Under the pieces are notes generated by a model. It ran no database searches. It was not told the DNA's origin and saw nothing but the letters and a program-made list of their open reading frames with translations. Position numbers and translations under genes: made by a program. A stretch of DNA of 35,452 bases from a virus: IMG/VR virus record IMGVR_UViG_3300009506_000115, positions 1 to 35,452 of that record, one strand, 5' to 3'. Positions 331 through 4,566 of the stretch are shown here, piece by piece. Positions within the stretch are counted from its first letter, which is position 1. Each line of letters begins with the position of its first letter.

Positions 331-478
331 GAGGCGAGAGGCCAGATTTGAACTGGCATTGATCGTACGAATCATCCCAAAAGGCTGGAATCGAACCAAC
401 GTGCAGCCAAACTCACTCACTAGAATATTTCCTAGATCGGCATCATTTGGAGCGTCTACCTATTCCGCCACTCTCGCC
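331..478 (-). ncRNA. tRNA-like RNA with oversized core (element 1)
   Basis: On the minus strand GGCGAGAG (478-471) pairs perfectly over 8 bp with CTCTCGCC (340-333). The 5' side is followed by TGGCGGAAT and a GCG...CGC D-arm like that of class II tRNA-Leu/Ser. A canonical T-arm, GCCAG-TTCAAAT-CTGGC, sits at 357-341 next to the 3' acceptor strand. Between D-arm and T-arm lie about 94 nt instead of the roughly 30 expected. This core holds a second T-arm-like hairpin (GTTGG-TTCGATT-CCAGC, 400-384) and a 6-bp hairpin CTAGGA-AATA-TTCTAG. No convincing 7-nt anticodon loop was found and no CCA is encoded. It may be an intron-bearing tRNA, a fused tRNA pair, or a non-decoding tRNA mimic. Confidence 0.6.
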
Positions 479-3340: not shown

Positions 3341-3501
3341 TGAATACTGCAATTCTTGAAATTGGGTCGCTATTGGGACCTGGATCGCGGTCGCGGTCGT
3401 GGTCGTGGTCGCGGTCGGGGTCGCGGTCGCGGTCGTGGTCGTGGTCGGGGTCGGGGTCGTGGTCGGGGTCGTGGTCGGGGTCGTTGTCGGGGTCGCGGTA
3501 A
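3340..3501 (+). CDS. Low-complexity Ser/Arg/Trp/Gly repeat peptide
   Basis: ATG at 3340 overlaps the previous TAA and has AAGGA 9 nt upstream. It encodes MNTAILEIGSLLGPG and then about 38 residues of SRSRSWSWS/SGSGSWSGS repeats from the hexanucleotide array. Because the array is open in several frames, an RG-dipeptide frame (3356-3571, TTG start) is an alternative. The initiation context favours this frame. It may be a small early gene whose 3' part was overrun by microsatellite expansion. Confidence 0.4.
   Translation: MNTAILEIGSLLGPGSRSRSWSWSRSGSRSRSWSWSGSGSWSGSWSGSLSGSR
3382..3500 (+). repeat. GC-rich hexanucleotide microsatellite (GGTCGN)n
   Basis: About 19 tandem units of GGTCGC, GGTCGT and GGTCGG variants in otherwise AT-rich DNA. 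The array encodes RG dipeptides in one frame, SR/SW/SG in another and V/G in the third, and is open on both strands over most of its length. Confidence 0.95.
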
Positions 3502-3909: not shown

Positions 3910-3944
3910 GCAATTCAGTAACTCGGCTACCGGGAAAACCCTAA
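3906..3944 (+). CDS. 12-codon leader frame with a very strong RBS
   Basis: MSNSVTRLPGKP then TAA, preceded by AAGGGAGGAAAGAAA, the best Shine-Dalgarno of the early region. Such a signal before a 12-codon frame is odd. The downstream HExxH frame is already open from 3922 in a different phase. A single-base shift near 3920-3940 would join the two, so this may be the true start of a frameshifted gene. Confidence 0.4.
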   Translation: MSNSVTRLPGKP

Positions 3945-3975: not shown

Positions 3976-4170
3976 TTGTTCTGGGAATGTAACAAGAAAA
4001 ACCCGCTTCGGCTTGCCACTCTTGCATTGACTACAGGTTGCGCTACGGTGCCATATGATCCTAATGGGACTTGTGTGGTGCATGTGCATAAAGGAGAGAA
4101 TCCTGTGGCGTTGGAGCATGAGTTGAAACATTGTCACGGCTATTCTGACTCTTGGTTGCCGGGAATGTAA
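3976..4170 (+). CDS. Putative HExxH lipoprotein-like protein, start unclear
   Basis: 64 aa from the TTG at 3976; the frame is open from 3922. After a basic start, LRLATLALTTGCATVP looks like a lipoprotein signal with the lipid cysteine at residue 22. Residues 48-52 (HELKH in VALEHELKHCHGY) match the zinc-protease HExxH motif. Small phage proteins with a TGC lipobox and EHE-LKH motif exist; their role is unknown. No good RBS precedes TTG, and the strong one at about 3890-3905 serves another phase. It ends 4 nt before the second tRNA-like RNA. Confidence 0.5.
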   Translation: MFWECNKKNPLRLATLALTTGCATVPYDPNGTCVVHVHKGENPVALEHELKHCHGYSDSWLPGM

Positions 4171-4174
4171 ATAT

Positions 4175-4334
4175 GACAGGGGTGGCGGAATAGGAACGGA
4201 CGTATCCTTCCTTTGGAACACGCAAAAGGGTCGCGGGCGTACAATGCCAAGGTGAGATAGCAACAAAGCCCGAAAAACAATGCTGATCAGCCTAAGACTC
4301 ACCATAGCCGGTTCGAACCCGGCCCCCTGTCACC
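4175..4334 (+). ncRNA. tRNA-like RNA with oversized core (element 2)
   Basis: GACAGGGG (4175-4182) pairs over 8 bp with CCCCTGTC (4324-4331), followed by ACC. As in element 1, the 5' strand leads into TGGCGGAATAGG and a D-arm-like GCG...CGT. The T-arm is perfect: GCCGG-TTCGAAC-CCGGC (4307-4323). About 103 nt separate D-arm and T-arm. The core includes a 6-bp helix GGTGAG/CTCACC enclosing the palindrome GCTGATCAGC, and a GGCGT-ACA-ATGCC hairpin. No standard anticodon loop is evident. An 8-bp acceptor or a tRNA-His-like G-1:C73 pair are both possible readings. Confidence 0.6.
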
Positions 4335-4350: not shown

Positions 4351-4566
4351 ATGGAATGTCCCTATTGTGGTTCTGAACTAGAACTAGAAGACTATTTTGG
4401 CAGAATTCTGGCACACCAAGATGGATATATCGCCGGAGATATTTATAGATGCCCAAAAGGACTTCAGCAAGATGGCTCATGCGAATCTGAATCATTTCAT
4501 GTAGCCGGGTCTTTTTACACATACAGAGATGGAGATACTTCTTTACATGAAGGATATCCGTGCTAA
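4351..4566 (+). CDS. Small zinc-ribbon protein
   Basis: 71 aa starting MECPYCGSEL with GAGAGAGGCA upstream. CPYC near the N-terminus plus later cysteines (YRCPKG, GSCES) make a probable zinc ribbon. Similar short proteins are common in phage early regions. Function unknown; it lies between the tRNA-like RNA and a small membrane protein. Confidence 0.6.
   Translation: MECPYCGSELELEDYFGRILAHQDGYIAGDIYRCPKGLQQDGSCESESFHVAGSFYTYRDGDTSLHEGYPC

Follow-up and report, generated by a model that had tools for sequence, protein, structure and literature searches.

A phage early-operon element with tRNA-Leu-like ends belongs to a family of tRNA-like elements with exchangeable cores

The question raised by element 2

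The rightward early operon of the phage studied here contains a stretch, element 2 (positions 4175-4334, plus strand), in which the ends resemble those of a tRNA and an unrelated sequence stands in place of the anticodon and variable arms. Is it a tRNA gene, the remains of one, or the gene of another kind of RNA? The window, that is the whole stretch of DNA analysed, is a 35,452-base virus record with phage genes including those for terminase and the major head protein, and the rightward early operon encodes an exonuclease, an annealing protein, NinB and NinG in a lambda-like order. A similar stretch, element 1, lies in the leftward early operon. The original prediction placed both elements in a family of small RNAs with conserved tRNA-like ends and variable cores, and argued against a single decayed tRNA.

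Anatomy of element 2

Element 2 was found as first described and its coordinates were confirmed (Table 1). Its acceptor-like strands, GACAGGGG and CCCCTGTC, are fully complementary as claimed, the T-arm is indeed perfect, and the core has the predicted length. The 12-mer said to be common to both elements, TGGCGGAATAGG (4183-4194), is identical to positions 470-459 of element 1 on the minus strand and recurs in the viral family described below. Element 2 meets the family criteria of a Leu-type D-arm (TGGCGGAATNGG) immediately 3' of the acceptor and of a paired acceptor of at least 7 bp joined to a perfect T-arm. It does not meet that of a Levitt pair, its Levitt position being A15-A48. The D-loop is longer than usual by about 2 nt, and the possible pseudoknot stem in the core would compete with a predicted hairpin GGCGT/ATGCC (4236-4248).

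Both window elements carry G-1:C73 (4175-4331 and 333-478), the signature pair of tRNA-His; the pair was seen in 5 of 63 long elements with acceptors other than AGTCAGG. The discriminator of element 2 is C73 after a 7-bp acceptor, and A only if the acceptor is taken as 8 bp. An antisense open reading frame (ORF) of 112 aa without family match covers 83% of element 2 and is probably spurious.

Table 1. Coordinates of element 2, its parts and its neighbours in the window
Feature	Position	Strand	Description
Element 2, acceptor-like helix, 5' strand (G-1 and positions 1-7)	4175-4182	+	GACAGGGG; 8/8 Watson-Crick with 4324-4331
Element 2, tRNA-Leu-type D-arm	4183-4203	+	U8, G9, stem GCG/CGU, loop GAATAGGAACGGA
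Element 2, variable core	4204-4306	+	103 nt, in place of anticodon and variable arms
Element 2, anticodon-like hairpin	4204-4231	+	ATCCTT (4204-4209)/AAGGGT (4226-4231), 16-nt loop; predicted from minimum-energy folds, no covariation available
Element 2, possible pseudoknot stem 1	4234-4272	+	CGGGC (4234-4238)/GCCCG (4268-4272); prediction only
Element 2, core helix	4251-4303	+	GGTGAG (4251-4256)/CTCACC (4298-4303); minimum-energy fold; 3' strand adjoins T-arm
Element 2, T-arm	4307-4323	+	GCCGG-TTCGAAC-CCGGC; perfect 5-bp stem, canonical loop
Element 2, 3' acceptor strand and tail	4324-4334	+	CCCCTGTC (4324-4331), pairs with 4175-4182; tail ACC
Element 1, second member in the window phage	333-478	-	Leftward early operon; paired ends; core related to that of L065
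Upstream short ORF	3976-4170	+	64 aa; stop 4 nt before element 2; no family match
Downstream ORF	4351-4566	+	71 aa; ribosome-binding site between element 2 and start; weak Zn-ribbon/PHROG 14974 match

No tRNA was detected at element 2 by ARAGORN or Rfam, and ARAGORN found in it no Leu anticodon in a 7-nt anticodon loop. Rfam at permissive thresholds returned nothing for element 2 and only a sub-threshold tRNA for element 1. When introns were allowed, ARAGORN fitted element 2 as tRNA-Phe(AAA) with a 65-nt intron, which favours a tRNA-Leu gene whose intron or insertion is removed to leave a functional tRNA. So do three loci (contigs are denoted by L numbers), L006:2869 (+), L076:3272 (+) and L108:3403 (-), which look like tRNA-Leu(UAA) whose anticodon loop is interrupted after CUU by a short insert of about 50-70 nt, at the position that group I introns occupy in plastid and cyanobacterial tRNA-Leu genes. 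For element 2 we consider this origin highly improbable: the Phe anticodon contradicts its Leu D-arm, Rfam RF00028 found no group I intron in it, and its insert is only 103 nt. Intron-aware fits were obtained for 112 of 127 real elements (88%) and for 89% with shuffled cores, and a Leu anticodon appeared in 10% and 11% of these fits, respectively. Since the fits were no better than those with shuffled cores, intron-bearing tRNAs were rejected at the family level, with L006, L076 and L108 as exceptions.

Comparison of element 2 with shuffled sequences

Element 2 did not arise by chance. The real window has two sites that combine a 7-bp acceptor with U8 and, within 220 nt, a 5-bp T-stem with GTTCRA; they are elements 1 and 2. 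None of 300 dinucleotide shuffles had such a site. With a profile built from 129 elements of other contigs, element 2 was the top match of the window at 50.7 bits, whereas no shuffled window out of 60 scored above 1.8. The D-arm part of this score is not independent, since the training set was partly gathered with the TGGCGGAAT pattern; the acceptor and T-arm parts are independent. The whole element also folds more stably than its shuffles (z -2.3, 3/200).

The core alone was not unusually stable (minimum free energy z -0.65, 51/200 shuffles). Comparison with 149 other long-element cores revealed no similarity, and a 10-nt match to L147 was at chance level. Nor did core 2 resemble core 1, in line with the claim that the two window cores are unrelated. 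The loops of core 2 were not found within such elements in IMG/VR, where a loop-based pattern gave 4 chance matches. The helix GGTGAG/CTCACC does pair in the minimum-energy fold as proposed; because of the unremarkable stability of the core and the lack of a homolog, this helix and the possible pseudoknot remain predictions. A role of core 2 as guide or antisense RNA was rejected, as its longest matches to the rest of the window (13 nt on the same strand, 12 nt in reverse) were within the range of shuffles.

Members of the family in viral genomes

IMG/VR was searched with two patterns. The first consisted of the D-arm 12-mer followed 86-116 nt on by GTTCRA and left the acceptor and T-stem unspecified. 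It matched at least 119 stretches, and at least about 65 of these have a fully paired acceptor and T-stem, a pairing that the pattern did not require. The second consisted of the T-arm and acceptor strand of the commonest subfamily and was blind to the D-arm and to length; at least 176 distinct elements with the acceptor AGTCAGG/CCTGACT were recovered on at least 120 contigs. Two or more of them lie on at least 32 of these contigs, up to six on one, with differing cores, and among the matches listed most retain the Leu-type D-arm. The family is larger than these lower bounds. The expected family of RNA genes with conserved tRNA-like ends and variable cores is thus supported, but core length does not characterise it: the listed elements with AGTCAGG span 68-190 nt with a median of 102, and two longer matches of about 277 nt are tandem elements. 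A finder for tRNAs and tRNA-like elements gave 443 matches in real loci; shuffled loci amounting to 2.19 Mb gave none. The elements avoid ORFs, with 16% covered against 58% for the background.

The check that more members should turn up in viral genomes was passed many times over, with the correction that they are in mostly unrelated phages. In the partial contigs available, the relatives of the window phage lack the element: it was not found in phages related by exonuclease or terminase. An annealing-protein scan turned up no relative of the window phage. In GTDB genomes the 19-mer AGTCAGGTGGCGGAATTGG occurred in only 7 contigs, all from metagenome or uncultured assemblies. No protein partner common to the contigs was detected, no ORF family being present in more than 10 of 90 loci. 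Members at L094, L095 and L378 lie within tRNA arrays, where tRNA-type processing is in operation.

Gene finding for tRNAs in default mode detected 1 of 143 long elements, and Rfam release 15 contains no family for the cores; as a result, phage RNAs of a common class seem to have been overlooked in annotation, also in published genomes. Long-core elements without annotation are present at L378:16863 and 19916 (LR756501.1, a 735-kb phage, inside its tRNA array) and at L376:519 (MW202828.1). The family itself is apparently undescribed, as far as the open-access literature goes, in which we found no account of it, and it is spread through many different phages. The parts of the report on huge phages available to us speak only of tRNAs and tmRNAs (PMC7162821).

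An extra D-loop insertion, often hairpin-like, precedes GG-TAGACGC at L295:4730, L366:6249, L155:483, L196:6792 and L218:5005. At L090:3618-3975 (+) a permuted tmRNA called by ARAGORN overlaps the 5' end of a long-core element at 3914.

The discriminator context of the family bears on a further explanation. Among the AGTCAGG matches listed, 159 of 176 have A73 and 172 of 176 have C74, and the A73-C74 context of members resembles that of true tRNAs on the same contigs. Together with the Leu-type D-arm, A73 would suit a mimic or decoy whose elbow and acceptor are bound by LeuRS, EF-Tu, the CCA enzyme or a tRNA-cleaving defence nuclease, the insert barring entry to the ribosome. LeuRS is known to ignore the anticodon, and phages do face tRNA-cleaving defences. 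We regard such a role as quite unlikely for element 2, because C73 instead of A73 in both window elements speaks against charging by LeuRS and because a decoy would have no need of exchangeable cores of 20-130 nt.

Conservation of the elbow

The tertiary pair of position 15 in the D-loop with position 48, which precedes the T-stem, was compared in 130 non-redundant long elements. It was A-U in 119, G-C in 5, A-C in 4 and A-A in 2; every G15 was combined with C48, and the covariation was significant (Fisher p=4e-7, n=130). With 124 of 130 elements retaining it, the Levitt pair is usual and not universal. The maintenance of a tertiary pair that joins both ends across an inserted core indicates selection on an L-shaped elbow. 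Element 1 has A-U at this position. Element 2 is one of the two A15-A48 exceptions, and this is its chief weakness as a typical member.

Exchange and structure of the cores

Most cores are unrelated to each other, and twelve small clusters have a common core. Some cores recur under different ends. The cores of L060 (acceptor GTGTGAG) and L070 (AGTCAGG) are nearly identical, and L038 (ACCAAAG), L064 (AGTCAGG) and L197 (GGTCAGG) have one core in common, in which the helix adjoining the T-arm shows a compensatory change. Element 1 and L065 have cores that are exactly alike over 19 nt, and an inner helix of these cores shows two double compensatory changes. In all of these groups the seven acceptor pairs have been rebuilt or have diverged and are fully re-paired. 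The cores are therefore exchangeable between ends, although such recurrence was found in a minority of members, element 1 being one of them and element 2 not.

On average the cores folded more stably than their shuffles (mean z -0.73, SEM 0.10), and a strong helix ending beside the T-arm was present in 63% of 130 cores and 34% of shuffles. A common pseudoknot architecture was not claimed: its frequency of 62% versus 38% in shuffles at -14 kcal/mol is only a modest excess, for which the helix beside the T-arm may by itself account. No motif common to the cores was found except the T-arm-like GTTCGA, which was the main enriched motif.

L034, L109 and L135 have a core similar to a stretch of Cellulophaga phages that lacks tRNA-like ends; in the cultured Cellulophaga phages phi10:1 and phi19:1 (L123:1450-1590 and L124:1450-1590) this structured core is intergenic sequence. 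A long-core element (1734-1606) at L060:1522-1951 (-) lies within a group I intron, recognised by Rfam with 72 bits, where it caps an A/T-rich helix that follows P7; the core of this element is also found outside any intron, in L070. Sequences resembling tRNAs, some with a CCA end of their own, are nested in the anticodon region of another element at L016:8098 (-), L076:3272 (+) and L080:3501 (+).

Some cores (L016, L076, L080 and element 1) include another T-arm or an entire nested tRNA. These, the enrichment of GTTCGA and the absence of any relative of core 2 are what might be left by recombination in phage tRNA arrays, whose chimeric or decayed products would be kept briefly without function. 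This seems very unlikely to us, since decay would break the perfect pairing and covarying 15-48 of the 130 elements, the exchange of acceptors under the same core and the structure of the cores. The argument that one decayed tRNA cannot account for the elements was upheld: decay leaves unexplained the paired acceptors, the covarying 15-48 and the occurrence of the same core on different acceptors.

Position in the early operons

The two divergent early operons each contain one element, as had been proposed, fitted tightly between ORFs. This position, and the lambda-like order of exonuclease, annealing protein, NinB and NinG, recall phage HK022, in which paired putL and putR RNAs, one per early operon, act on RNA polymerase. 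Element 2 could likewise be a cis-acting part of the early operon, either acting on RNA polymerase in the manner of putL and putR or marking, by its tRNA-like fold, a processing site at which the polycistronic mRNA is cut, with a core that matters little as free RNA. We consider this unlikely, though not negligible. The elements lie about 1.6-2 kb away from the promoters, the two window cores are unrelated whereas the put sites resemble each other, and other members are in tRNA arrays or within a group I intron (L060), not in early operons.

Repeats were noticed elsewhere in the window. A G+C-rich hexamer-like repeat (tcgcgg/tcgtgg/tcgggg) at 3372-3500 (+) lies in a short ORF and would encode a Ser/Arg/Gly/Trp repeat; L003:170-245 is similar to it. 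Between small early ORFs lie direct repeats of about 40-55 bp, nearly identical within each of two pairs (2344-2400/2647-2700 and 2610-2652/3517-3561), which suggest recent duplications.

Comparison with known RNAs

T4 species 1 RNA is the nearest described RNA. It (rnaC, 139 nt) and species 2 RNA (rnaD) are stable phage RNAs of similar length encoded beside tRNAs (NC_000866). Like element 2, rnaC has a canonical 3' T-arm, CCGGG-TTCGAAT-CCCGG; unlike element 2, it shows by eye neither a Leu-type D-arm nor, with the annotated 5' end, a perfect 7-bp acceptor. Apart from the T-arm, inspection by eye found no sequence or D-arm similarity between the two.

With tRNA-Leu genes, including intron-bearing ones, element 2 shares the type of acceptor, D-arm and T-arm, U8, A14, G18G19 and the TTCRA loop, but its anticodon and variable arms are replaced. 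The tmRNAs are likewise non-decoding RNAs with tRNA-like ends, RNase P processing and an insert that often contains pseudoknots. They differ in their Ala-type tRNA domain without D-stem, their coding tag and their length of about 350 nt, and neither ARAGORN nor Rfam found a tmRNA in the window. GOLLD and ROOL are structured phage RNAs of unknown function that often lie near tRNA islands (PMC12286853). Compared with element 2 they are much larger, each has its own conserved fold and neither has tRNA-like ends; no Rfam match to them was obtained here. Recombinant tRNA-scaffold vectors follow the same principle and embed foreign RNA in a tRNA scaffold so as to give it defined ends and stability (PMC3753655). 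Those vectors are engineered, and the phage elements would be their natural counterpart.

Proposed function

On balance we favour element 2 as the gene for an early-operon RNA that is processed like a tRNA, a tRNA scaffold carrying a non-decoding payload; this is probable rather than established, as there are no RNA data. Element 2 would be transcribed within the rightward early operon, and its acceptor, D-arm and T-arm would fold into a tRNA elbow. In tRNA maturation RNase P and RNase Z need no more than an acceptor/T-arm stack with an intact elbow, and cleavage of the early transcript at both ends is therefore expected. Given such an elbow, host RNase P at the 5' end and RNase Z or 3' exonucleases may excise element 2 from the mRNA as a stable phage RNA of about 157 nt on a tRNA-Leu-like scaffold. 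The processing and stability of element 2 are inferred from tRNA biology. The RNA would be non-decoding because an unrelated structured insert replaces the anticodon and variable arms. The scaffold would supply ends and stability, and the insert would do the work, its most likely mode of action being to bind, early in infection, a protein or RNA of the host or the phage. A role of the core in regulation or counter-defence at that stage is a guess, based on the location in an early operon and the fast turnover of cores. We hold the evidence for the family to be strong and that for a functional RNA from element 2 to be moderate; expression data are lacking and the IMG/VR contigs are fragments.

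More broadly, and only as a tentative proposal that could well fail, the family may be a natural tRNA-scaffold expression system. Common ends, which in one large subfamily are always AGTCAGG/CCTGACT, would present many unrelated and rapidly exchanging RNA modules and equip every phage with its own arsenal of stable small RNAs; element 2 would be an early-operon module. If the elements are processed and stable, phages use tRNA ends to carry unrelated RNA payloads, and the purpose of the stable species 1 RNA of T4 could be asked across hundreds of relatives. Functional RNA modules, possibly ones for regulation or counter-defence, have ready candidates in the cores that recur on different scaffolds.
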